Shown piece by piece: positions 4,828-17,002 of a stretch of DNA of 39,664 nt; the stretch's first letter is position 1; every line of letters starts with the position of its first letter. The DNA is from Bacteriovoracaceae bacterium (GTDB taxonomy: Bacteria > Bdellovibrionota > Bacteriovoracia > Bacteriovoracales > Bacteriovoracaceae). Under the pieces are notes generated by a model. It was not told the origin of the DNA. It was given only the letters and a program-made list of their open reading frames with translations, and searched no databases. The translations under genes and the position numbers were made by a program. The DNA lies in NCBI GenBank assembly GCA_023954635.1, contig JAGSHI010000019.1, positions 1-39,664 of the forward strand, in the 5' to 3' direction.

Positions 4828-5568
4828 TTAAGCTCCTATTGGCTCCCAAGATTCATGACCTTTTTCATTTTGAATACCACTCTTTGCAATATTACCTAAG
4901 AACCGCCAAAAGTTTTGTTTAAAACTACCTTCGATAAAGTTCTCATTTAAGCAATAGTTCATGTGATTCAAACTTAGTTTCCTGTAAGACAGATCTTCTA
5001 GTCTTCTGTATTCTTCAATTTGTTTGTTAACTTCGACCTCATCTGTAGTGTAGTGAGAAATTATTTTATTACAGAATTTTAAATGTTTTTCCTCATCTTT
5101 TATGGCCTCTTCTAACATAGATTTTATGGCCCAGTCTTTATCAAAGACTTGTAATAGGTTTTGAAACTCTAGGATGGCCCTTTCTTCAATAACTAAAAGC
5201 AAGGCCATAATGTTGATTACATCTTGATCAGTTTTTATCTCGTTATTTAAAATATTGAGTTCACTGTCTAAAACTTTCAATAATCTAATATCATCTGTAA
5301 GTGGAATTGGTTTTTCACCTAACATTTCAATATAATCGAGAAACATTTGTTCATGTTTTTCTTCATCTGCTTTATGTGCTTTTACTATTTTTTTGATGGT
5401 CGGATCTTGAATATAATCTTCTATTTTATCAAAAAGATGTAGCTCACCTGAGTTTCCTCCTTCAGCATCGGCCATCTGGCTAAAGAGATGAACGAGACCC
5501 TTTTTATTAGTGAGGGCCTGTTTCATAAATTGGATATTGAGGTAATTTTCTAACATTTTTGTACGCAT
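4828..5568 (-). CDS. Ferritin-like diiron four-helix-bundle protein
   Basis: A 246-residue helical protein with two EExH-type metal motifs in a ferritin-like arrangement: E36 (DAEGG), EEKH at 69-72, EE at 128-129 with E134, and EEKH at 159-162. These fit the six ligands of a carboxylate-bridged diiron or rubrerythrin-like centre. No rubredoxin domain or signal peptide is present, so it is a cytosolic oxidoreductase or metal/peroxide-handling protein of unknown substrate. The ATG is preceded by GGAG. The TetR gene lies immediately upstream on the same strand, and a TetR operator copy sits on this gene's own -10 box, so it is the most likely target of that repressor. Confidence 0.78.
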   Translation of the reverse strand: MRTKMLENYLNIQFMKQALTNKKGLVHLFSQMADAEGGNSGELHLFDKIEDYIQDPTIKKIVKAHKADEEKHEQMFLDYIEMLGEKPIPLTDDIRLLKVLDSELNILNNEIKTDQDVINIMALLLVIEERAILEFQNLLQVFDKDWAIKSMLEEAIKDEEKHLKFCNKIISHYTTDEVEVNKQIEEYRRLEDLSYRKLSLNHMNYCLNENFIEGSFKQNFWRFLGNIAKSGIQNEKGHESWEPIGA

Positions 5569-5591
5569 ACTATTCTCCTGGTTGAAAAACT

Positions 5592-5629
5592 CACTGACTA
5601 TTGTAGTGTTTTAGTCAGTGGGTGGTAAA
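5592..5629 (-). promoter_or_regulatory. Promoter and TetR operator of ferritin-like gene
   Basis: The inverted repeat CACTGACTA (5592-5600), N11, TAGTCAGTG (5612-5620) matches the operator upstream of tetR (CTGACTA-N11-TAGTCAG). On the minus strand the -10 TACAAT (5600-5605) lies inside it, with a weaker -35 TTTACC (5624-5629) 18 bp upstream. Binding would block RNA polymerase. Confidence 0.8.
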
Positions 5630-5634
5630 TTTTT

Positions 5635-6225
5635 TTAGGCCTTCGCCCGTATTCCATTAAAAATAAGGTCAAAAGCTGTTTTTTCTCTATCTCTTAAGTC
5701 GTCCATATTTGTGTGTTCATTCATGTGGAACAAAAAGGTTGATGTCATAAGGTCTAAAAGGATATTTGCAACTTGTTCAACATTTAAGTCACCTTTGAAA
5801 GTACCTTGCCTGATCCCTGTTTGAAGTATTTCTCTAATTGGTCCAAGGGACAGTCTTCTTAATTCAGGGATTTTATTTTTTACACTAGGTATGAGGGATG
5901 AATACTTACCAAAAAAGAAGTCTTTTATGAGAGGGTATTTATCCATTGTTTCGATTGTTCTTTGACTTGCTTGAAGGAGTTGTTGATCGGCGGGTAGTGC
6001 CGGGTCTACATCCTCTAGGACTTCGAGGTCCCATCTTCTAATTTGCCGAGTGAGTACTTGGTAGAATAATTCGTCTTTAGATTTTGAAACGAGATACAAT
6101 GTGCCCTTGGCCACTCCTGCGGCCTTGGCTATTTCATCCATTGAAGTCTTTTTAAAGCCCCACTTCGCAAACTTTTGAGCAGCTTCAACTAGAATGCAAT
6201 CTTTCTTGTTTTTATCAATACCCAT
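5635..6225 (-). CDS. TetR/AcrR family transcriptional repressor
   Basis: A 196-residue protein with a TetR N-terminal DNA-binding domain: AAQKFAKWGFKKTSMDEIAKAAGVAKGTLY at about residues 14-43, with the helix-turn-helix at about 27-46. A helical ligand-binding and dimerisation domain without recognisable ligand signature follows. An AGGGA ribosome site precedes the ATG. Two copies of one palindrome with identical 11-bp spacing lie on the promoters of this gene and of the downstream diiron gene. This predicts autoregulation plus repression of that gene. The ligand is not inferable from sequence. Confidence 0.92.
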   Translation of the reverse strand: MGIDKNKKDCILVEAAQKFAKWGFKKTSMDEIAKAAGVAKGTLYLVSKSKDELFYQVLTRQIRRWDLEVLEDVDPALPADQQLLQASQRTIETMDKYPLIKDFFFGKYSSLIPSVKNKIPELRRLSLGPIREILQTGIRQGTFKGDLNVEQVANILLDLMTSTFLFHMNEHTNMDDLRDREKTAFDLIFNGIRAKA

Positions 6226-6325: not shown

Positions 6326-7300
6326 TTAGTTTAGAATAAGAGGGGCTTTGTTCTTACTGATGTTTTGAGAAATATGAGTATCTTCAACTTTTAGCGAATG
6401 TAAAAGGTCAAAGACGGTATTTGCAGTCACTTGCAAATCCTCTTCATCCCCAAGCATAGGATTGACTTCTACTAGGTCCATCGAATTTAAACGGCCTGTT
6501 TTCCGTACTTCTTTGATGATGCTTTTGGCTTCATTCAACGTTAGGCCACCTTTGGCAGGAGTACCTGTTGAAGGAGCGTAACTGGGATCTATCCCATCAA
6601 TATCAAAACTTATATGAAAAGGGTCTTTGCCCCAAGGGTCCAACTTCTTAGTCGCCTCTTTAATGACCTGCTCTACTCCGTAAGCTTTCACTTCTTTAGA
6701 GGTATATACGCAAATACCATTTTCAGTTAGAAGTTTAACTTCACCTTCATCTATATCTCTTGCACCAATTACAACAATATTTTTTGGATCCAATTGAGGG
6801 ATCCACCTTGTGTATTCATCTGTCATTGGATGAGAATAAAGTTTAAGTAGAAAGCTTAAAGGCATACCATGAATGTTTCCACTAGGACTTGTAAGTGGAG
6901 TATTGATATCAACATGTGCATCAACCCAAATTATTTTTGTATTGGGATTATGTTTCAGTACACCAGATAATGTTCCAAGTGCAATACTGTGATCTCCACC
7001 AATGGTGAGAACAAAGTTAAGAAGTCCTAACTGGTCTTCAACTATATTTGATAGATGTTTGTTATAATTTGTAACACTTGGAAAGTTATGTGCCTTGTCT
7101 GGAAAATGCTCTTCAAACAACTTGTCTTGCTCTTCTAAATGCACTTCTCTTAATTCTGGGAGGTCATCAATAGTAGAGAATATTTCGTGTAACTGCCCTA
7201 GAAGACCTCTATGTTTTAGCCAACCAGGGGCCAAGTTTGTACCCTCGGTTTTCTGCCCGATCCAAGCGGCAGCCGATAGAAGTGTTAGTGTTTCACGCAT
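6326..7300 (-). CDS. rocF: Arginase
   Basis: A 324-residue ureohydrolase with the full set of binuclear manganese ligands: GGDHS (H104), VDAHVD (D127, H129, D131) and SFDIDGIDP (D233, D235). E278 lies in the VEVNP motif. The text around the active site (INTP...SGNIHGMPLSF) is that of arginase rather than agmatinase, so it should hydrolyse L-arginine to ornithine and urea. Ornithine would feed nitrogen or polyamine metabolism. No urease or ornithine genes are nearby. There is no Shine-Dalgarno sequence; a promoter -10 lies exactly six bases before the ATG, pointing to a leaderless transcript. The gene is monocistronic or reads into tetR. Confidence 0.92.
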   Translation of the reverse strand: MRETLTLLSAAAWIGQKTEGTNLAPGWLKHRGLLGQLHEIFSTIDDLPELREVHLEEQDKLFEEHFPDKAHNFPSVTNYNKHLSNIVEDQLGLLNFVLTIGGDHSIALGTLSGVLKHNPNTKIIWVDAHVDINTPLTSPSGNIHGMPLSFLLKLYSHPMTDEYTRWIPQLDPKNIVVIGARDIDEGEVKLLTENGICVYTSKEVKAYGVEQVIKEATKKLDPWGKDPFHISFDIDGIDPSYAPSTGTPAKGGLTLNEAKSIIKEVRKTGRLNSMDLVEVNPMLGDEEDLQVTANTVFDLLHSLKVEDTHISQNISKNKAPLILN

Positions 7301-7464: not shown

Positions 7465-8223
7465 TTACTTCTCTTCCTTAATTGCCCCGGCCGTAGAAAT
7501 TAAGGGGAGGCCGCCACTTACGTTGAGAGAGCTACCACTGATGTAAGTATCCTCCATGAGAAAAGTTAAACAACTTTGTGCAATATGGACAGGTTCACCT
7601 AGCTTGTTCATAGGGATACCTTTTGACATTCTCTTGGCATAGAACTCTCTTTCCCAGAATCTTTTTGTTCTTTGTGTTTTGATTATTCCTGGGCGGAGTG
7701 TGTTTGCTGTTATGTTATGTTTACCATAATCAACTGCAATATTTTTGATGAGTCCTTCTATCGCAGATTTACCTAAACAATACAGTCCATACTTACTAGT
7801 GCCAGCACTAGCAACTACACTTGATATATATAAAATTCGACCTAGCTTTCTCTCAACCATTCCAGGAATTAAAGATCTTAAAAGAAGGACATTTCCTTTG
7901 ATATTTTCTAAAAGCTCTGAATCAACATCTTCATCTGTAAACTCATGAAAATCTTTTAGTTCATCAACTTTTTTCCATGCATTGAGTACAACTGAATCTA
8001 ATTCAAATTTTACTAATTGTTCCATATTAGTATTTGGGGCTGAAAAATTAAAAATACAGAAATCAATACGGTCTTTATTAGGATGTTTTTCCCAATATTC
8101 TTTGGCAGATTTGTGACTCTCTTTAGAGCTGCAGGTAAAAACAATTGAATCACCTCGTTCGAGCAGAATTTCTCCTAAAGATTTAGAGATGTCCGAGTTT
8201 GAGCCAGTTATTAGGACTTTCAT
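7465..8223 (-). CDS. SDR family NAD(P)-dependent oxidoreductase
   Basis: A 252-residue classical short-chain dehydrogenase/reductase. The cofactor loop is TGSNSDIS (residues 6-13), with the catalytic Ser at 134-135 (YISS), Y148 and K152 (Y-C-L-G-K) and a PGxI motif after the active site. This enzyme class reduces or oxidises keto/hydroxyl groups; in this locus a beta-ketoacyl product of the KAS III enzymes is a plausible substrate (inference). It is the last gene of a seven-gene operon and starts in an ATGA overlap with the hexapeptide protein. The cofactor-loop glycine pattern (GSNSDIS) is looser than the usual GxxxGIG. Confidence 0.85.
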   Translation of the reverse strand: MKVLITGSNSDISKSLGEILLERGDSIVFTCSSKESHKSAKEYWEKHPNKDRIDFCIFNFSAPNTNMEQLVKFELDSVVLNAWKKVDELKDFHEFTDEDVDSELLENIKGNVLLLRSLIPGMVERKLGRILYISSVVASAGTSKYGLYCLGKSAIEGLIKNIAVDYGKHNITANTLRPGIIKTQRTKRFWEREFYAKRMSKGIPMNKLGEPVHIAQSCLTFLMEDTYISGSSLNVSGGLPLISTAGAIKEEK

Positions 8224-8816
8224 AAATTTTTTCCTTTTCCGTAAACTTGATTGGGTTCAGTTTTTGTTCCAGGTTTTACAGTCGTGTGGGGGAGGATAAG
8301 TGTTCCTGGTGCAAGATAAACTGGACGTAAAACTATTTTATCTTTTGCAATATAATGAGCAGTAATCTTGGCATTGTCTCCGATCAAGCAACCTTCACCA
8401 ATTGTTACCATTGTGAGGTCTGTAATCTCACTATTTAGGGCCATTTGGAAATTGTAAGGGACATTGGCCCCTAAAGCTTTAAAAATTAAATATCGACTCC
8501 AAGCCATTGATAAAATGATTTTTCTAAGTCCTGAACAGAGAAAGGCGCGTAATAAACAAAGATTCATATACCAACCGAGATACTCATTATTAAAGCCGAC
8601 AGTAATGACACCTTTTTGTGGTTTTGGAATAATTATTCTCATTAAGAAAAGAAAAAAGGAAAGTGTGAAAATGGCAAATACTGGGGTTAACCACATGAGT
8701 ATTTCATTTGTTCCTTTAGTAAAGAATAGAAATGTTAATGACCAAGTGGCGAGTATAGGTACAGTTATAAAAATATATCCAATTAAATCCATACAAATAA
8801 TAAGTTGTTTGTTCAT
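8220..8816 (-). CDS. Membrane-anchored left-handed beta-helix (hexapeptide) acyltransferase-like protein
   Basis: The protein has two N-terminal membrane helices (about residues 5-30 and 38-58), then an amphipathic region and a C-terminal left-handed beta-helix with hexapeptide rungs (VTIGEGCLIGDNAKI, KIVLRPVYLAPGTLILPHT). This layout resembles the terminal hexapeptide units of NRPS-like and poly-lysine-synthase-type proteins and O- or N-acyltransferases. The longer frame from 8873 would overlap its neighbour by 61 bp. The ATG at 8816 forms an ATGA overlap like every other junction in the operon and was chosen (198 residues). It may transfer the locus's acyl product to a membrane acceptor, but the catalytic residues cannot be assigned. 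Confidence 0.75.
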   Translation of the reverse strand: MNKQLIICMDLIGYIFITVPILATWSLTFLFFTKGTNEILMWLTPVFAIFTLSFFLFLMRIIIPKPQKGVITVGFNNEYLGWYMNLCLLRAFLCSGLRKIILSMAWSRYLIFKALGANVPYNFQMALNSEITDLTMVTIGEGCLIGDNAKITAHYIAKDKIVLRPVYLAPGTLILPHTTVKPGTKTEPNQVYGKGKNL

Positions 8817-9748
8817 TTTTTTAACCTCATCATTCTTTTGTCTTGAAACCACTCTAAACAATTCTGTAGACACTGGGACGGTTCAGTTTTTGGATTATAT
8901 TTAAGCTCATTCATAGCTTTTTGAGATGAGATTTTCTGAGTTAAGCAAAACTCTCTCTCAATAGGATATTTCCTTAATTCTTCTCTTGAAATTTCTGATA
9001 AGTCATTAAAGTCTTTTCCAATTTTTTCACAACAAACTTTTAAAAAATCTTCTATCTCAATGTTTGTTCCACCTAGAATAAAATGACCTTGGGAATTATT
9101 GTCAAGTGAAAGGAAGATACCATTAGCTACATCTGATGCAGCAACAATATTTTTGAAACCTTTAGTGTAGTAATTAAATTTTTTCATTTTGAGCGCCATT
9201 AAAACGGCACCAGAACTTGGTCTTGAATCATACTTATCTAACATAAACCCGGGATGAATTACCGTTACATTTGAAACATCTTGATTATCAAGCCAATCAT
9301 CAGCTTCTTTTTTTGTGAGAGCATACTTTGTTTCTCTCATGTGGGAATTTGAAGTTTCTGTTAACTCTTGTGATTGATCTTCTGATCCTAGAACACTTGT
9401 GGAGGAGATTTGTATAAATTTATTTATATTGGCAGACTTCCCCATAGTGTAAAGAGACTTAGGCAGTTGAGTATTCATTTGCTCCATTAGTTCATGATCT
9501 TTTTCAAATGGAGAAGCAAAGGCCGCAGCATTAATTATGACATCAACGTCTGAAAATAATTGTTCAGGAAGGCCCTCTGTAAGTTTGGTTTCAATTAGTC
9601 GAATAGATTCATTATCTTTGTGTCGATTTAAAAAATGCCGATTCGAGATTTTTCTATAGGGGACAACGAACTGATGATTTAACTGTAGACCTCGGTCAAT
9701 AATATGTGATCCGAGCAAGCCTGTCCCACCAGTAAGGAGTATCCTCAT
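8813..9748 (-). CDS. NAD-dependent epimerase/dehydratase family protein
   Basis: An extended SDR of 311 residues. The Rossmann loop is TGGTGLLGSH at residues 6-15, the active site is Ser 115-116 and Y142-A-L-T-K146, and the C-terminal substrate domain matches the dihydroflavonol-reductase/3-beta-HSD branch. It could reduce a beta-keto acyl group, as OleD does in the olefin/beta-lactone pathway, but the resemblance is at superfamily level only. The start at 9748 (MRILLTGG) is preferred over the one four codons upstream because it gives the ATGA junction with the KAS III gene. Confidence 0.82.
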   Translation of the reverse strand: MRILLTGGTGLLGSHIIDRGLQLNHQFVVPYRKISNRHFLNRHKDNESIRLIETKLTEGLPEQLFSDVDVIINAAAFASPFEKDHELMEQMNTQLPKSLYTMGKSANINKFIQISSTSVLGSEDQSQELTETSNSHMRETKYALTKKEADDWLDNQDVSNVTVIHPGFMLDKYDSRPSSGAVLMALKMKKFNYYTKGFKNIVAASDVANGIFLSLDNNSQGHFILGGTNIEIEDFLKVCCEKIGKDFNDLSEISREELRKYPIEREFCLTQKISSQKAMNELKYNPKTEPSQCLQNCLEWFQDKRMMRLKK

Positions 9749-10728
9749 TCTTGACCCCACAATATAGAGGCAATTCCTATATGATAACCAGCTCCCATCG
9801 CCATGATTAGAATTCTTTCCCCATTTTTTATGGAACCACTTTTAATTGCTTCAGAGAGGGAGAGTCCAACACTAGCAGAACTTGAGTTTCCATATTTATC
9901 AAAGTTAATCCAAACTTTAGACTCTGAGATTCCCATTTCTTTTGCAATGGCCCTAATTAAAAGACCGTTCCCTTGATGAAAAATAAAATGATCAAAGTCA
10001 TCTAGAGATTGGTTTTTAGACTCTAAGGTTTGAAGCACTTTATCTATTAATTTTGATTTGGTTATCTCTGATATTTTGGTTCCATCATTCATCGTTATAA
10101 GATGTTTATTTGAAGAATAAGTTTCCTTTGAAAAAGGCTCTTTAGTTCCTCCTGCTGGAATTAAAATTTCATAATCTTTTGAGGCCTCGGTTTTTGTTTC
10201 TACCCATTCAATCTGATTTGGGGAATCTGATTTTTCTACTATCATCGCACAAGCAGCGTCGCCAAAAAGAAATGCTGTACGTCTATCTGAGGTATTTATA
10301 AATCTTGAACGACATTCAGTTGCTATAACTAGTGCTTGTTTACATTTCCCTCGTTCTAGCCAGCCAAGGGCAGAATCGAGAGCAAAAAGATAACCTGCAC
10401 AAGCCGCATTAATATCAAAACAAGGGTAATCGTCGTTTAAGTTAAGTTTTCTCTTTAGAATTGAACTTGTTGACGGTGTTAAATAGTCACCAGTGATAGT
10501 TGAAAGGAATATAGGTCCTTGGAAATTTTTGAGATTTAGTTTTTCACAAGCAAAAGTGGCAAGGTCTGAGGTCGCCTGATCTTCAACGGCCCATCTTCTT
10601 TCTTTGATCCCTACAATTTTTTCAACCCATCCAGACTTCATCCTAAGTCCAAACTTATCAATGAGGTCTTGATTCGTAAGAATGTTATCAGGAAGGTAAT
10701 GACTTGTTTCTACAATTCGAAAACTCAT
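9745..10728 (-). CDS. Beta-ketoacyl-ACP synthase III-like (second copy)
   Basis: A 327-residue thiolase-fold condensing enzyme with the FabH triad in place: C110 (NAACAGYLFAL), H251 (FHQGN) and N281 (KYGNSSSAS), plus the GxGxG-like MAMGAGYHIG end. KAS III enzymes condense an acyl-CoA or acyl-ACP starter with malonyl-ACP. In secondary pathways they also catalyse ester formation or head-to-head condensation. It differs markedly from the other KAS III in the operon, so the two probably do different steps rather than being a recent duplication. Both ends are ATGA overlaps. A housekeeping FabH role is unlikely because no other fab gene is present. Confidence 0.9.
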   Translation of the reverse strand: MSFRIVETSHYLPDNILTNQDLIDKFGLRMKSGWVEKIVGIKERRWAVEDQATSDLATFACEKLNLKNFQGPIFLSTITGDYLTPSTSSILKRKLNLNDDYPCFDINAACAGYLFALDSALGWLERGKCKQALVIATECRSRFINTSDRRTAFLFGDAACAMIVEKSDSPNQIEWVETKTEASKDYEILIPAGGTKEPFSKETYSSNKHLITMNDGTKISEITKSKLIDKVLQTLESKNQSLDDFDHFIFHQGNGLLIRAIAKEMGISESKVWINFDKYGNSSSASVGLSLSEAIKSGSIKNGERILIMAMGAGYHIGIASILWGQE

Positions 10729-12050
10729 TCTTGCTCCAAAGTTTTGTATAATTGTTTTCGGTCAATTTTCTCTAGGGAGTTTCTAGGAAGAGATTCATAG
10801 GAATAAATCAATTTAGGGATTTGATGAGAAGCAAGTTTTCCCTTAAGAAATTCTCTAAGCAAAGAAGGCTCAACTGTTGGTTCAACAATAAGAATAGGCT
10901 CTTCTTCATATAACTCTGATTTCCTTTTTAAAACAATTGCATCTACTACTTTTGGGTGTTGTTTAATAACTAATTCAATATCTGAAGGATACAAACTTAT
11001 ACCTCCAAAATTGATGAGATCATCTTCTCTTGTTATGAAAAATACTTCGCTATTCTCATTGATTCTTACTTGATCTCTAGTAATAAGCCATCCATCAATT
11101 AACTCATTTTCTTTTATATTTAACTTTAGAGTTGGACTTTTTATTAAAAGTTTTCCTACTCCTGTTCTCGATATCTTTGAATCTGAATCAAGTACTGCTG
11201 TCTCAACACGCTTTAAGCTAGATCCTATAAAGCCTTCTTCGTGATCGCTCCATAGACCTGTAGTTACTCTTGGACCAGCCTCAGTAAGACCATAGGTGGT
11301 GTATATTTCAGTATTGGGGAGTTTTCTTTTAATCTCTTTTAGGCTTTTATTATCAATAGATCCTCCTCCTATCGAAATTATATCAATACCTATTGGAGGA
11401 GAGGTTTTTTCTTTTAACATAAATCTTAATTGGCTAGGGGACAAATGAATTACTGAATTTTTTAAATTTCTTTTTGATAATGTCTTTAAGCCAAGAAAAA
11501 TGTGATTTAAATCTAAAGTAAAGCCACATTTAATCCAAGCGAAGATATAAGAGATGATGCCGAAGGAGTGATAGAGAGGTAAGGTTTGTATAACAGTATT
11601 ATCTTTGTTAACTCCTAAGCTATCGGCATGAAGTTTGGAGTTCAAAAGAGCATTGTCTAAGTTTAAATAACATAGTTTTGATATACCAGTAGTACCAGAT
11701 GTTAAACATGCATAACAGTTTGTATGGCTTTCAGTTAAAGTCTCTTTACTTAAATTGATATCCTGATTATTGAAAACTGCGGCTCCTTTAATACTCTTTC
11801 TTAAATGTTCTAATTGAAACTCGGTAGTTTCTGTGGGTAAACTAATGGGGATTAACCCGAAATCAAGGGCCATTAAAAATGAATATAAGAATCGAACAGG
11901 ATCTTTTTGTAATATAAGTATAGGAGAGTTCTTAGGGACCTTTTCAAGGTTTAGCTTAATAGAGTCAATAATACGGTTTCTATCTGTGTTGAGAACTTCC
12001 TTTCCTGCTAAAGTTAAATTTAAATTTAAGGTTTGATCAACTAATTTCAT
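10725..12050 (-). CDS. AMP-dependent acyl ligase (ANL superfamily)
   Basis: A 441-residue adenylating enzyme. The phosphate loop is LTSGTTGISK (116-125), followed by YGLTEAG (253-259), a TRDQ equivalent of the TGD motif at about 324-327, the hinge RxDDxIxFGG (341-350) and the C-terminal lysine K428 in LEKIDR. It should activate a carboxylate as the acyl-adenylate and load it on CoA or on the adjacent ACP. It is shorter than typical fatty acyl-CoA ligases (about 500-560) and lacks a long N-terminal domain. An OleC-like beta-lactone synthetase is a remote alternative. It starts in an ATGA overlap with the ACP gene, which suggests the ACP is its partner. Confidence 0.87.
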   Translation of the reverse strand: MKLVDQTLNLNLTLAGKEVLNTDRNRIIDSIKLNLEKVPKNSPILILQKDPVRFLYSFLMALDFGLIPISLPTETTEFQLEHLRKSIKGAAVFNNQDINLSKETLTESHTNCYACLTSGTTGISKLCYLNLDNALLNSKLHADSLGVNKDNTVIQTLPLYHSFGIISYIFAWIKCGFTLDLNHIFLGLKTLSKRNLKNSVIHLSPSQLRFMLKEKTSPPIGIDIISIGGGSIDNKSLKEIKRKLPNTEIYTTYGLTEAGPRVTTGLWSDHEEGFIGSSLKRVETAVLDSDSKISRTGVGKLLIKSPTLKLNIKENELIDGWLITRDQVRINENSEVFFITREDDLINFGGISLYPSDIELVIKQHPKVVDAIVLKRKSELYEEEPILIVEPTVEPSLLREFLKGKLASHQIPKLIYSYESLPRNSLEKIDRKQLYKTLEQE

Positions 12051-12286
12051 CCTAACTTTTTAATTGTCTCAATACTATCACCAACAGTTTTCCATTCAGC
12101 AATAACGGTTTCATCTAATTCAGGATACTTTTCTTGGAGTTCGAAGGCCAATGTCATTAACCCTAAACTATCAAGTCCTAAGTCATTTCTATATTCATGC
12201 TCTGGTTTAACTTCATCTGGTTTTACTTGTGTGACTAGATCTTCGCTTTCTTGAAGGATATTTCGAATGACTTCTAAAATATCCAT
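12047..12286 (-). CDS. Acyl carrier protein
   Basis: Seventy-nine residues, acidic and helical, with the phosphopantetheine attachment motif LGLDSLGLM and the modified serine at S40. It is dedicated to this cluster rather than the housekeeping AcpP, because it sits between a KAS III and an acyl ligase with no fab genes. GGAGAGG precedes the ATG. The stop of the upstream KAS III immediately abuts this start, with zero intergenic bases. Confidence 0.92.
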   Translation of the reverse strand: MDILEVIRNILQESEDLVTQVKPDEVKPEHEYRNDLGLDSLGLMTLAFELQEKYPELDETVIAEWKTVGDSIETIKKLG

Positions 12287-13306
12287 TTAACCTCTCCGCC
12301 TTAAGCAAACTCCGGCCCAAGACAGGCCTCCTCCAACAGCATGGTAAATGAGTGTTTCACCTGGTTTTACTTTCTTTTCATTTTTGAGCCAGAAATGATA
12401 ATTAATAAAAATAGTAGGGCAACCCATATTTCCATATTGAGTAAAATTGAGTGCGACAGCGTTGTCATCTATTCCTTTGCTCTTAGCGAAAAGTAAATTC
12501 TTACTGCCATCTACCTGATGAGAAATATAATGATCGACATCACTACCTTCGATTTTTGAAGTCTCTAGTAAATCTTCTAGTGACTTTGACCAATAATAGG
12601 CCATCTTTTCAAGTGAATCTGTTTTTTGAGCAAAGTGAAAGAAGTATTGAGATGGATCATGATTATCTGTATCGATAGGGTATTTACCTGGGACATACAT
12701 CGTCTTTAAATACTCTGCATCTGTACCGTGTACAACTCCAAGAACTTCTACATTCTCATCTGCACTTACACTCATTGCACTAGCTCCATCCCCAATTGAA
12801 ACCGCCATCTGTAGAATTTCTTTATTTGTAAATTTTGAAAAAGTTTCAGCGCAGACAATAACACCTTTTTTGGCCCCATTCTGAAACCAATCAAGGGCCT
12901 GAATTAATGCTAATACCCCTGTTGAACAACCAGACTTAATATCCCAACAACTTGTATTCTTAAAGCCAAGTTCTCCTGCTAGTAAAGCAGAAGTACAGAC
13001 AGTTGGCATAGGGTTACTAATTCCGGCTAGAATTAAGAATTCGGCTTCTTCAAGTAATGTAGGATCTGTTTCAACTAATTTTTTAAGTGCTTGCCTGGAT
13101 AGATCAAGTGCATCCTGATCTTTTGTGGCCCAATAACGTTTTTCGATTTTCATTTTCTTAGTTACAAATGAAAGTAAACGTTGGTCTTCTTCACCTCGTC
13201 CCATTTTAAGAATATCTTCGTTTGACATTTCTTGCATGGATTCGAAGTCACAGGTTTCTACATTATCAATGGTCAAACCTGTCTTATAGTTTTTTGCATT
13301 AAACAT
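12287..13306 (-). CDS. Beta-ketoacyl-ACP synthase III-like (first copy)
   Basis: A 339-residue KAS III fold protein and first gene of the lipid operon. The catalytic triad is visible: C127 in KSGCSTGVLAL, H263 in YISHQVDG and N293 in QYGNMGCPT, with AVGGGLSW near the end. The active-site surroundings (SGCS instead of AACAG, a Pro at the position after GC) depart from FabH and from the second copy, so substrate choice probably differs. It has a good AAAGGA ribosome site and a TATAAT box. No decarboxylase or thioesterase is encoded nearby. Confidence 0.88.
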   Translation of the reverse strand: MFNAKNYKTGLTIDNVETCDFESMQEMSNEDILKMGRGEEDQRLLSFVTKKMKIEKRYWATKDQDALDLSRQALKKLVETDPTLLEEAEFLILAGISNPMPTVCTSALLAGELGFKNTSCWDIKSGCSTGVLALIQALDWFQNGAKKGVIVCAETFSKFTNKEILQMAVSIGDGASAMSVSADENVEVLGVVHGTDAEYLKTMYVPGKYPIDTDNHDPSQYFFHFAQKTDSLEKMAYYWSKSLEDLLETSKIEGSDVDHYISHQVDGSKNLLFAKSKGIDDNAVALNFTQYGNMGCPTIFINYHFWLKNEKKVKPGETLIYHAVGGGLSWAGVCLRRRG

Positions 13307-13323
13307 TAAATTCCTTTGTTTAA

Positions 13324-13329
13324 ATTATA
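13324..13329 (-). promoter_or_regulatory. -10 box of the seven-gene lipid operon
   Basis: A perfect TATAAT on the minus strand, about 18 bp upstream of the ATG at 13306. No convincing -35 lies 16-18 bp upstream, which suggests an activator-dependent or weak promoter. The predicted leader is only about 11 nt and just contains the AAAGGA ribosome site. Confidence 0.5.
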
Positions 13330-13442
13330 CTCGACTTTGAGGAAAAGGGAGATATGCCTTAATTAAATAGTTGGGAAGCATGGGCCTATTTTCGATTCAA
13401 TTTGAAAGGCAAAAATAAATTAAACCATTAACTAGGGGGATA

Positions 13443-13471
13443 TTGTTTAGTGAACTAATTATATGTGTAAT
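13443..13471 (+). promoter_or_regulatory. Promoter of the carboxyltransferase-desaturase pair
   Basis: TTGTTT (13443-13448), 17-bp spacer, TGTAAT (13466-13471), then AAGGTG and the ATG at 13497. This placement argues that the gene starts at 13497 rather than at the in-frame TTG at 13443. The 190-bp region between the two divergent operons holds nothing else that could be recognised. Confidence 0.5.
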
Positions 13472-13496
13472 AACAAATAGTTATAAGGTGTACAAA

Positions 13497-14996
13497 ATGC
13501 TGTCAGGGCATGAAACTTTTACAAGATTTAACAAAATGTGCACTGCGTCATTTAAACTATTAAAAAATTTTGAAAAGGTAAAAACAGTTATGAAAATGTT
13601 CAAGTGGTATCTCTTATCTGAAGATGAACAAAGATTTTTATCCCCAATACAGGGACTCATACCTGATTGTCCTTCAAATATATATGCTTATCTACCTCAT
13701 GATTGGGACAAGAAATCACTTCGTAAAAGCTTTGATGGACTTTGGACTATCAAAGTAGAAACTGCATTTAAGACTTACGGTATCGCTTGGAATGATTTTA
13801 AAATTTTTGGTGGAAGTTTTGGAGTTAGAAACTCAGCTAGACTTGTCAGTTTTATTAATCAACTCGATAAAGGTCGCAATCCTCTTTTTATGTCTTTCAA
13901 CACTATTGGTGTTCGGATAATGGAAGGTAGACAAGTATTCCCTTTTGCATTCAAAATAATTCCTGCACTGATTAGTTTTGCAAAAAAGAACCTTTTGGTA
14001 ACTTCAAACCATGGAAAATGTCTAGGTCTTGGAGCTCTACTCTATGTTCTCGGTCAATACAGAATGGCCCTTAAAGAAAGTAGCCAAATCAACCTTACTG
14101 GTCCAGAAGTTTTTAAAATGTTCTTTGGAGTAGGTGTAGATTTCTCTGAACATTTTAATTCAAAGAATATGCAAAATAAAACATCAATGATTCATGAAAT
14201 TCATGAAACCTCTGATGAATTATATGGAAAAGTCCAGACTCTGTTAGGCTTAAGGGCCTTACATGGAACTATTTCTAATCCTGGCGCTGCAACAGAAATC
14301 GTATTAGATAAAATGTTTGATTCTAGAATGGAAGTATTCTCACAAAATAATAGTAGTGTACTTTCTTTTATAGCCAAAAAAAGCAATGTAGACTGTGGTG
14401 TTCTCATTAACCCTCTTGGAAAAGGGAATATGATTAACTCTAAAACAATCCAAAAATATAGAGACTCGCTTGCCTTGTTCAAAAGGTTAGGATTACCCCT
14501 CATTAGCATCGTAGATACACCTGGTGCTGACCCAAGAATAGTAGAAACTGAAAATGGAATAATCAATGCAATCGCTGATGTAACAGCAGAAATAATTGAG
14601 TACCCACATGATAAAATTGGAATAACAGCTGGCCGTTGTTACGGTGGAGCGAGCGTTTTAATGATCCCAACTATTTATGGAGGTAAGCCTTCTTTAGCAA
14701 TGAAGGGTTCCCATATGGGAATCATGGGTAAACAAATAATAAAACAATTGTTGTCTGGTAGTCAGAGATTCCTTGAAATGTGGGAAGCTCATTCAAGCTA
14801 TGAAACAGGTTTAAGAGATTTAATTGAATTAGGACTGTTTGAGGGCGAATTTGATCTTGATGGCGTCATCTCTAAAGTCGATGACTTCTTACTTGATAAT
14901 GAAACAGAAGAAGAAAATATTATAAAAATTCAAAATGGAATTCAAATAAGATTGCCGCAACCCCAGGTGAGGACTAGAGTATGGAAAAGACAATAA
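13497..14996 (+). CDS. Acyl-CoA carboxylase carboxyltransferase-like protein
   Basis: About 499 residues of the crotonase-fold carboxyltransferase type (AccD/AccA and PccB relatives). There are two ClpP/crotonase-like halves, with glycine-rich oxyanion segments such as GRCYGGASVLMIP and a DTPGADPR motif in the second half that is characteristic of carboxyltransferases. No biotin carboxylase or biotin carrier gene lies nearby and no Cys4 zinc motif was seen. It must borrow partners, or act differently (for example as a decarboxylase). In this setting it could supply a malonyl-type extender to the KAS III enzymes. The start is set by AAGGTG six bases before ATG; the TTG 54 bp upstream has poor spacing. 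Its end overlaps the desaturase by 16 bp. Confidence 0.75.
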   Translation: MLSGHETFTRFNKMCTASFKLLKNFEKVKTVMKMFKWYLLSEDEQRFLSPIQGLIPDCPSNIYAYLPHDWDKKSLRKSFDGLWTIKVETAFKTYGIAWNDFKIFGGSFGVRNSARLVSFINQLDKGRNPLFMSFNTIGVRIMEGRQVFPFAFKIIPALISFAKKNLLVTSNHGKCLGLGALLYVLGQYRMALKESSQINLTGPEVFKMFFGVGVDFSEHFNSKNMQNKTSMIHEIHETSDELYGKVQTLLGLRALHGTISNPGAATEIVLDKMFDSRMEVFSQNNSSVLSFIAKKSNVDCGVLINPLGKGNMINSKTIQKYRDSLALFKRLGLPLISIVDTPGADPRIVETENGIINAIADVTAEIIEYPHDKIGITAGRCYGGASVLMIPTIYGGKPSLAMKGSHMGIMGKQIIKQLLSGSQRFLEMWEAHSSYETGLRDLIELGLFEGEFDLDGVISKVDDFLLDNETEEENIIKIQNGIQIRLPQPQVRTRVWKRQ

Positions 14997-15931
14997 ACCC
15001 AGCAAATCCATTAACAAGAGAACAATTAAAAAAGTTCACAACTGTTAATACAGCGAAGGGGCTTTCTCTCATTTTACTTGATTATGCAATATTGGCAGTA
15101 CTTATTATTGCTGCTGCTAAAATTAACCATTGGGCAATTTATTTACTCGCGATTCCTTTTATAGCGAATAGGCAGCACTCATTATTAATACAAATGCATG
15201 ATGCCGCTCATGGGAATATATCAAAAAATAAAAAGCTAAATGATTTTGTAGGTGAACTCCTAACTGCTTGGCCAATGTTTATTAGAATGGAGCCATATAG
15301 AATCACTCACAATTTACATCACTCTTTTTCAAATACAAACAAAGACCCAGACTTTATTGAAGAAAGGTTTCCACAGAGTCAAGAACTACTGAGAAAGCAT
15401 CTACTTAAAGATCTTTTCGGTTTAGGTATTCTTGATCAGTTTAAAAATATGAAGAAATTAAAAGCCCCAGCTAGCCCAAAAATTAAGGCATTAAGAATTG
15501 CTTTTTATCTTACTCTTGCAGGCATTATAACTTTTTTTGGAGTTTGGAAGTTTTACTTATTGCTTTGGGTACTTCCTCTCTTTACTTGGTTGAAGTTTAT
15601 TCTTCATATTAGATCTATTGCTGATCACTCAGGGCCAGGTCTGCAATTACAGGAACATCCTTTTAATACTAGAACAGTAAAACCTTCTTTGTTTGATATA
15701 CTTTTTATTGCTCCAAGAAATTGTAGCTATCATATGGCACATTCTATTTATGCAAGTGTTCCAACTTATCACTTGAAAGACTGTCATAATGAAATTATGA
15801 AACACTCAATCTTTCAGGAAAAAGCTAGAATAACTGATGGGTATCACAACTTATTGAGTGAGTTTCCAAAAACTGAGAAAGAAGTTAAAGAAAAAGATTT
15901 TGATTTCTTTTCAGGTAGTGTATTTTCTTAA
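14981..15931 (+). CDS. Membrane fatty acid desaturase family protein
   Basis: A 316-residue integral membrane diiron enzyme with about four hydrophobic segments. Histidine boxes: HDAAH (73-77) and HNLHH (110-114) are canonical. The third, expected as HxxHH near NxxYHxxHH, reads HMAHS (251-255), so one metal-ligand histidine is replaced by Ser; an extra H216 in ADHSG is present. The family introduces double bonds or hydroxyls into acyl chains, using oxygen. The altered third box may shift activity or mean a different ligand is used. It is coupled to the carboxyltransferase by overlap and closed by a hairpin terminator, so the two form a bicistronic unit divergent from the KAS III operon. Confidence 0.82.
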   Translation: MEKTINPANPLTREQLKKFTTVNTAKGLSLILLDYAILAVLIIAAAKINHWAIYLLAIPFIANRQHSLLIQMHDAAHGNISKNKKLNDFVGELLTAWPMFIRMEPYRITHNLHHSFSNTNKDPDFIEERFPQSQELLRKHLLKDLFGLGILDQFKNMKKLKAPASPKIKALRIAFYLTLAGIITFFGVWKFYLLLWVLPLFTWLKFILHIRSIADHSGPGLQLQEHPFNTRTVKPSLFDILFIAPRNCSYHMAHSIYASVPTYHLKDCHNEIMKHSIFQEKARITDGYHNLLSEFPKTEKEVKEKDFDFFSGSVFS

Positions 15932-15977: not shown

Positions 15978-16003
15978 ATTAAAATCCTTTTAACGTGAAT
16001 AAC

Positions 16004-17002
16004 ATGAAAAATATCATTCTATTCCTAGTCTTTATATTTTCATCTCAATCTTTAGCTAATGAAATTTGGAAAATAAATGACGATCATAGTGATCTTGGTT
16101 TTACGGTAAACTATCTAAAAGTAAGCTCAGTTCGAGGAAGGTTTAATAAACTTAGTGGAGAAGTAGAGTTAAAGAATAATAAACCTGTTAAAGTAAATTT
16201 AATCATTGGTGCCAAAAGTATATCCACTGGAAATAAACTCCGAGATTCTCATCTAAGACGTTCAGACTTTCTTCATGTTAAAAAACATCCAAAAATAAAT
16301 TTTACATCTAAATCTATTACTACAATTGATAAGAATGTATTTGAAGTTAAAGGATTTCTTAAGATACAAAAAATAAAACGGCCACTGAGCCTTATTGTTA
16401 CTCTAAGTGAAACTGTGAAAGATACTTGGGGAAAACAACATCGATTTGCTGTATATTCTGGTCAATTAGATCGTTACGACTACGGCCTTAAGTGGAATAA
16501 GACGCTTCCTGGTAGCGATTTCTTAGTCAGCAATAGGATTATTCTTAAAGGTTCAATTCAACTTCAACCTACAGGAAAAGCTACTGCTTCATCAAAGCAC
16601 ATGATCCCTGATAATAAGAGTATTCGAAAAAGAGAGAAGCTTAATCGTGGGGAAGTCTCAAAAGAAGCAACTAGGATTGATAGACCAAAACTTAAAATAT
16701 TTAAAAATAAAAACAATACATTTGAAAAATCAAACTTTATCAAAAAAAATAAAAAAGAAATTAAATCAAAAGAACCCGACTCACAGTGGCCTATCAGTAG
16801 AATTTTGGCACTTCTGTATCATGGACTTTTTGGTTTTATAGGATCTCTAACTGTTTTTATTGGTATAAAGAAGGCATTTCTTCATATCAATAAGGATAAG
16901 TACGATGAAACAAACTTAATAGGACACTTCTCTGATGCCATTGGCATCATCTTTTGCCTGCTTTGGGCCATTAGTTTTTACCACTTTGTCTTTTATAAAT
17001 AA
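16004..17002 (+). CDS. YceI-domain lipid-binding protein with membrane-anchored tail
   Basis: A signal peptide (cleaved near SLANE) leads into a YceI lipocalin-like domain of about 170 residues (W-x-I-x-x-x-HSxLGFTV start, ..LRDSHLRRSDFLHVKKHPKINFTS core). YceI domains bind isoprenoid quinones or fatty-acid amides in a beta-barrel. After it come about 80 basic, probably disordered residues and two membrane helices (about 270-290 and 310-330). That C-terminal extension is not part of normal YceI proteins, and would tether the barrel to the inner membrane. ATG 16004 was taken in place of the GTG three codons earlier; neither has a clear ribosome site. It lies just downstream of the lipid locus but behind its terminator. 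Confidence 0.78.
   Translation: MKNIILFLVFIFSSQSLANEIWKINDDHSDLGFTVNYLKVSSVRGRFNKLSGEVELKNNKPVKVNLIIGAKSISTGNKLRDSHLRRSDFLHVKKHPKINFTSKSITTIDKNVFEVKGFLKIQKIKRPLSLIVTLSETVKDTWGKQHRFAVYSGQLDRYDYGLKWNKTLPGSDFLVSNRIILKGSIQLQPTGKATASSKHMIPDNKSIRKREKLNRGEVSKEATRIDRPKLKIFKNKNNTFEKSNFIKKNKKEIKSKEPDSQWPISRILALLYHGLFGFIGSLTVFIGIKKAFLHINKDKYDETNLIGHFSDAIGIIFCLLWAISFYHFVFYK

Follow-up and report, generated by a model that had tools for sequence, protein, structure and literature searches.

The window, which is the whole 39.7-kb contig (G000:C115; 39,664 nucleotides) of a draft Bacteriovoracaceae genome, carries at 7465-15931 a nine-gene locus that seems to be devoted to lipid assembly on a dedicated acyl carrier protein (ACP). 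A sequence-only reading had placed nine genes here, and all nine open reading frames (ORFs) are present with the domains it assigned, as judged from the ORFs and from domain scans. Seven of them form a minus-strand operon in the order KAS1 (a condensing enzyme of the beta-ketoacyl-ACP synthase III, or KAS III, fold), ACP, an ANL-family acyl ligase, a second condensing enzyme (KAS2), an extended short-chain dehydrogenase/reductase (SDR) of the NAD epimerase type, a membrane-anchored hexapeptide protein and a classical SDR. A carboxyltransferase (CT) and a membrane protein of the fatty acid desaturase family are encoded divergently on the plus strand.

Read directly, the KAS1 and ACP genes abut as TAA-ATG with a zero-base gap, and the junctions ACP to ligase, ligase to KAS2, KAS2 to epimerase, epimerase to hexapeptide and hexapeptide to SDR are five 4-nt ATGA overlaps, as had been claimed. 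Two of these overlaps require ATG starts at 9748 (epimerase) and 8816 (hexapeptide) and not the mechanically assigned GTG starts. The CT and desaturase genes overlap by 16 nt. The most likely CT start is the ATG at 13590 (468 amino acids) rather than the TTG at 13443 that opens the ORF, because the TTG is not conserved and the L011 orthologue begins MVMKMFKW. A promoter scan of the divergent intergenic region between the operon and the CT-desaturase pair (13307..13589) gave no signal above shuffled background, and the GC content of the locus (0.346) is close to that of the rest of the window (0.352).

The encoded enzymes

KAS1 (12287..13306, minus strand), the product of the first gene of the operon, contains Pfam ACP_syn_III and the C-terminal domain, and its predicted model (pLDDT 82) adopts the FabH fold. 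Its active-site motif is DIKSGCSTG and its catalytic triad, C127/H263/N293, is invariant across seven aligned orthologues. KAS2 (9745..10728, minus strand) is FabH-like, with the motif NAACAG and the triad C110/H251/N281, and reaches 244.7 bits to beta-ketoacyl-ACP synthase 3, just below the cut-off of 249. The two enzymes are about 28% identical, and in a 40-sequence tree KAS1, KAS2, OleA and FabH each form a clade of their own, all fully or almost fully supported, with a weak deep order, KAS1 being strongly diverged (support 100/100, stem 2.66). The SGCS (KAS1) and AACAG (KAS2) motifs are in the sequence as first described, and the contrast between them is not by itself a sign of two different condensations, given that both enzymes keep the Cys-His-Asn triad. 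Neither has the Glu-Pro of OleA-type enzymes, the position reading M/L-P in KAS1 and T-P in KAS2 and E-P in the true OleA of this genome; triads without that Glu-Pro favour an ordinary decarboxylative condensation. An identity of either KAS as a housekeeping FabH or an OleA is ruled out by the in-genome controls and the tree, and structural ranking could not separate BioZ, FabH and PqsBC as assignments for KAS1, the Z values being nearly tied. Elsewhere in the same genome L140 (G000:C55):8628-13429 encodes a hydrolase-like ORF, an aberrant KAS III (SARCSSN around the Cys, no HQ motif), an SDR, another hydrolase-like ORF and an ANL ligase, and two IMG/VR contigs (L107, L113) encode viral KAS III-like proteins with 30% identity to KAS2.

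The ACP (12047..12286, minus strand; Pfam PP-binding) has a DSL motif and, in the alignment, an invariant Ser40. The short ligase beside it (10725..12050, minus strand; 441 amino acids; AMP-binding) has intact catalytic motifs that are conserved in the alignment, namely LTSGTTG, YGLTEAGPR, TRD and the C-terminal lysine; its gene adjoins that of the ACP here, its orthologue is also beside an ACP in G038, and it is probably the acyl-ACP loading enzyme. The epimerase-type SDR (8813..9748, minus strand; Epimerase 64.6 bits), with the motifs TGGTGLLG and YALTK, is likely a keto reductase, and the classical FabG-like SDR (7465..8223, minus strand; adh_short_C2 99 bits, and alignment), with the active site YCLGK, is likely a 3-oxoacyl reductase. 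A dedicated acyl-ACP assembly pathway, as the sequence-only reading had it, is supported.

The hexapeptide protein (8220..8816, minus strand), a putative acyltransferase of the left-handed beta-helix (LbH) type, matches Hexapep weakly. The best family for its relatives is TIGR02353, the terminal domain of the Pls/PosA nonribosomal peptide synthetases (NRPSs), with E values of 1e-9 to 1e-15, and it is the N-terminal membrane and hexapeptide region of that model which best matches the hexapeptide proteins of the locus. In contrast to Pls/PosA these are stand-alone proteins of 198-295 amino acids with no NRPS, and they score far under the family cut-off. A relation to the membrane/LbH part of Pls/PosA upholds the membrane hexapeptide protein of the earlier description and is consistent with acyl transfer at the membrane.

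The CT (13590..14996, plus strand; Carboxyl_trans 70.9 bits) belongs to a rare subfamily of the PccB/12S type and has the motifs GGSFG, RIMEG, LTGPEV, VDTPG and YGGASV. Profile matches in the PDB are to PccB/12S carboxyltransferases (E 1e-32) over most of its length, at about 18% identity to structurally characterised beta-subunits, and its model (pLDDT 78) finds AccD6 by Foldseek (E 4e-26) and also matches propionyl-CoA carboxylase and long-chain acyl-CoA carboxylase subunits. It has the two crotonase-fold halves and both oxyanion loops of a biotin carboxyltransferase, keeps the biotin-side YGGA loop and TGP(E/D)V, and may be biotin dependent. At the position of PccB Asp422 the window CT has Val, as Val or Ile is found in all nine CT family members, and the conserved short-chain Phe is replaced by Ile/Leu/Val or by Pro, according to a one-residue alignment shift. 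This Phe is universal in carboxylases acting on acyl-CoAs of four carbons or fewer, and changes at the Asp422 and Phe positions open the pocket of the stambomycin enzyme MccB for longer chains (PMC5187497). The CT is then a PccB-like protein with its pocket changed as in the medium-chain enzyme, probably a medium- or long-chain carboxyltransferase, and since the residues that restrict the pocket to short chains are replaced an alkylmalonyl-type extender is indicated; the proposal that it supplies malonyl units is probably too narrow. Like MccB the CT is a lone beta-subunit, with no biotin carboxylase (BC) to go with it, and since MccB works with the general, primary-metabolic carboxylase alpha-subunit (PMC5187497) the lack of a BC at the locus is no contradiction. 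Unlike MccB and PccB, it forms a separate subfamily, tied to KAS III-fold enzymes and not to a modular polyketide synthase (PKS). Its candidacy as a housekeeping acetyl-CoA carboxylase (ACC) was rejected, 111 of 116 relatives being without the CT at E 1e-20. A second CT homologue lies at L064 (G000:C1):5315-6665 as two overlapping ORFs in different frames, either because the copy is frameshifted or because beta and alpha parts are naturally separate.

The desaturase (14981..15931, plus strand; FA_desaturase 105.9 bits, and alignment) has the histidine boxes HDAAH, HNLHH and HMAHS, the third with a Ser where HxxHH is usual, and this is so in all three close orthologues; among NCBIfam models the GntB arginine hydroxylase comes nearest to it (108.6 bits, under the cut-off of 380). 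Close orthologues occur in three of the seven carriers of KAS1, G035 giving a weak match and G043, G038 and G369 none, and on this patchy distribution the desaturase was rejected as a core gene and is better regarded as an accessory to the set in which it had been counted. In G138 it sits at a second locus, next to genes homologous to those of the window hexapeptide protein and SDR, and hexapeptide-SDR-desaturase looks like a separable tailoring module. That second locus, L105 (G138:C9):5092-13501, also encodes an MMPL protein, a MATE-like transporter and two ORFs, and is a possible tailoring/export module.

Conservation and the pairing of KAS1 with the carboxyltransferase

The comparison data are mostly metagenome-assembled genomes (MAGs), and the closest locus-bearing relatives of the window genome include MAGs labelled Bacteriovoracaceae and Bdellovibrio. 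Orthologues of KAS1 occur in G002 (81% identity, same genus), G138 (61%), G043 (60%), G038 (58%) and G035 (56%), and in a gammaproteobacterial MAG (G369, JABLXQ010000018; 53%). Six genomes of a 369-genome phylum sample have KAS1; a seventh match, in G065, proved to be a FabH-type paralogue and was set aside.

The order KAS1-ACP-ligase-KAS2, followed by the epimerase-type and classical SDRs, is kept in G002, G043, G035 and G138. Hexapeptide proteins, an MMPL protein and the CT are close by in these four in varying order, except that the G043 locus is without the MMPL gene and the nearest CT in G035 is about 10 kb off; MMPL is adjacent at the locus in G002, G035 and G138. In G038 the genes are scattered over five contigs (KAS1 on C14, ACP-ligase on C49, KAS2-SDR-epimerase on C116, the CT on C87 and an unlinked MMPL on C41). 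In G369 the set is reduced to KAS1, the CT and an SDR, together with a GH3-family adenylating protein and a KAS2-like protein that is more distant. A neighbourhood search, proposed earlier as a check, thus finds the core compact in four other genomes and scattered in one, with co-occurrence conserved and no characterised cluster matched. The nine-gene set is real and goes beyond chance, and the first account of its composition needs amending in that an MMPL transporter and extra hexapeptide proteins belong to it in relatives and are missing here.

KAS1 orthologues (at least 56% identity) and the CT are found in exactly the same five of 116 related genomes, the congener G001 lacking both, and G138 and G369 likewise carry both. 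The probability that two sets of five drawn at random from 116 coincide is 6e-9, and counted by genus (a match in 4 of 84) the figure, calculated by hand, is about 5e-7; neither value corrects for common descent. KAS1 and the CT look like an obligate pair, and because the G038 genes are unlinked and yet all present their association looks functional and not positional.

Outside these genomes a search of viral contigs with KAS1 gave no relative, and scans of plasmids for KAS1 and the CT gave just distant FabH-/PccB-type relatives (under 30% identity among the matches listed). Among 369 genomes from the same class as the gammaproteobacterial carrier, KAS1 is limited to that one MAG, and so no wide spread outside Bacteriovoracaceae was found.

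Of the genes flanking the locus in the window, a ferritin-like protein and a TetR regulator (4828-6225) are separated from it by an arginase-family gene (6326-7300) and are not adjacent to the locus in the relatives read; a YceI gene (15995-17002) adjoins it in the two congeners only and was left out of the locus.

Comparison with known lipid systems

The locus resembles oleABCD in having a KAS III-fold enzyme, an ANL ligase and an extended SDR, and differs in the absence of OleB and of the OleA Glu-Pro and in the presence of an ACP, a CT and a second KAS. The genome provides its own internal control in a separate complete oleABCD cluster, L141 (G000:C30):4284-8780, with OleA, OleC and OleD at 393, 608 and 333 bits; against this the OleD model gives the epimerase-type SDR 18.6 bits (cut-off 580), no OleC model, which the OleC of this genome reaches at 461-500 bits, is among the 25 best families of the ligase, and no OleB-type alpha/beta-hydrolase is found among the window ORFs scanned. 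An ole identity was accordingly rejected. Fatty acid synthesis is likewise represented elsewhere in the genome, where FabH sits in a fabH-fabD-fabG-fabF operon (L142; fabD and fabF named by eye). Profiles for aryl polyene, dialkylresorcinol and flexirubin systems fall well short, with DarB at 48 and 21 bits against 550 and FlxB at 74 against 340. Family profiles and the in-genome controls thus agree with the earlier view that no complete ole, aryl-polyene or fatty-acid cluster is matched, and no characterised cluster matching the locus was found in the open-access literature.

A parallel in logic is mycolic acid assembly by fadD32-pks13-accD4, which combines FadD32, the ACP and KS of Pks13, AccD4 and CmrA (PMC9900942). 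Where the mycolate locus of Corynebacteriales (with CmrA and MmpL3) relies on Pks13, here, in a different phylum, the condensing enzymes are separate proteins of the KAS III fold and the ACP stands alone, no type I Pks13-like multidomain PKS (ACP-KS-AT-ACP-TE) being present in the window, and a hexapeptide membrane protein stands where the mycolate system has the Pks13 thioesterase. The lipstatin synthase LstAB and PqsBC offer a precedent for a single operon with a pair of diverged KAS III genes, whose products may form a heterodimer, with the difference that here both copies have Cys-His-Asn triads, an ACP and a CT are present, and the ligase and SDR are not OleC and OleD by profile.

A KAS III that is sister to the KAS2 clade occurs in G067 beside a full BC-biotin carboxyl carrier protein (BCCP) and CT, ACPs, ligases, an SDR and a hexapeptide protein. 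This lipid cluster, L096 (G067:C80):6186-19486, also has a hydrolase, a Haem_oxygenas_2 protein and an acyl-CoA dehydrogenase; its ANL ligases number two and its BC and BCCP are fused.

A possible route to a branched envelope lipid

With a ligase, an own ACP, a probable medium- or long-chain CT, triad-bearing KAS enzymes and two reductases together, a mycolic-type assembly is the simplest reading, and on sequence and analogy the locus may quite plausibly, if tentatively, be taken as a type II pathway in which discrete enzymes would build an alpha-branched, beta-hydroxy and perhaps wax-like lipid for the envelope, comparable to the FadD32-Pks13-AccD4 route. The CT, with the general BC/BCCP of the cell, would add a carboxyl group to an acyl-CoA of medium or long chain, giving an alpha-carboxyacyl (alkylmalonyl) thioester, and the ligase would activate a second fatty acid and load it onto the ACP of the locus. 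The chains would be joined by KAS1 in a decarboxylative Claisen condensation with loss of CO2, KAS2 perhaps serving as its heterodimer partner or in a second step; we infer both the chain lengths and which KAS takes which chain. The epimerase-type and FabG-like SDRs would then reduce the 2-alkyl-3-oxo product to a 3-hydroxy acid, which the membrane hexapeptide protein could hand to a lipid or glycan acceptor. In relatives the MMPL transporter might export the product, and a desaturase would modify one chain in the window genus and, from its other locus, in G138.

Several observations weigh against this branched route. Chain length is judged by two residues of the pocket in a protein whose identity to its reference is about 18%, and different alignments place the Phe one residue apart, the G038 CT having Phe in one register. 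No BC was found among the scanned window ORFs, the rest of the genome not having been searched, and the CT could instead be a decarboxylase or transcarboxylase. G369 is without the ligase family, having the GH3-type adenylating protein instead, and no ACP was recognised at its locus. Lone CT homologues or paralogues lie away from KAS1 inside carrier genomes, and the window genome lacks the locus MMPL gene, its best MMPL matches being paralogues at 36-37%.

The same enzymes could be arranged as a linear pathway from a short-chain starter, in which the CT or the housekeeping ACC gives malonyl units, KAS2 starts from an unusual acyl-CoA, KAS1 extends once and the SDRs yield a linear 3-hydroxy- or dihydroxyacyl-ACP for transfer to a surface glycan or lipid. 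The closeness of KAS2 to the generic beta-ketoacyl-ACP synthase 3 profile is in its favour, as are the listed structural neighbours of the KAS1 model, all of them FabH, BioZ or PqsBC/PqsD types. It seems unlikely, though, for the housekeeping ACC already makes malonyl-CoA, which would leave an extra CT invariably tied to KAS1 superfluous, and the residues that gate PccB to short chains are replaced in the CT.

The role of the CT could also be reversed, the protein acting as a biotin-independent or Na+-linked decarboxylase (MdcDE- or MmdA-like) on the cluster ACP, for example turning malonyl- or alkylmalonyl-ACP into acetyl- or acyl-ACP primers for the KAS enzymes. PMC5534430 describes malonate decarboxylase as pairing CT-type decarboxylase subunits with an ACP, the locus has no BC, and MmdA is the best NCBIfam match of the CT, at 37 bits against a cut-off near 999. 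Set against these, carboxylase beta-subunits give the best PDB matches, which extend along most of the length and include both oxyanion loops, malonate decarboxylase itself scores just 18.7 bits, and G369 has KAS1 and the CT with no ACP recognised at its locus, which makes a decarboxylase improbable.

Least probable is a non-decarboxylative condensation of the ole or lipstatin kind by an LstAB-like KAS1/KAS2 heterodimer, the ligase serving as OleC and the epimerase as OleD to take a 2-alkyl-3-oxo acid to a beta-lactone or hydroxy acid, for despite the lst-like grouping of two KAS III genes of about 28% identity with a ligase and an extended SDR (PMC12141560), and the absence of OleB, both KAS enzymes have full triads and no Glu-Pro (LstB, not aligned here, has its Glu elsewhere), the OleC and OleD profiles that recognise the genome's own enzymes pass these by, and the CT would be left with no role.

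If the branched, mycolic-type route is returned to, a broader proposal follows, possible if doubtful, that Gram-negative Bacteriovoracaceae independently evolved a mycolic-acid-like pathway out of separate enzymes, in which a long-chain acyl-CoA carboxylase and a dedicated condensing enzyme of the KAS III fold link two fatty chains head to middle before export of the branched beta-hydroxy lipid to the outer membrane. PMC5310785 describes mycolic acids as exclusive to Corynebacteriales, and a type II version in Bdellovibrionota would, if true, be a case of convergent evolution of mycolic chemistry, and its enzymes, soluble and separable, would allow alpha-carboxyacyl condensation to be studied. 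Even without branching, a carboxyltransferase and a KAS III that always occur together form a pair seemingly unreported in the open-access literature, and whatever the outcome on branching this pair would mark an uncharacterised envelope lipid in predator-related bacteria.

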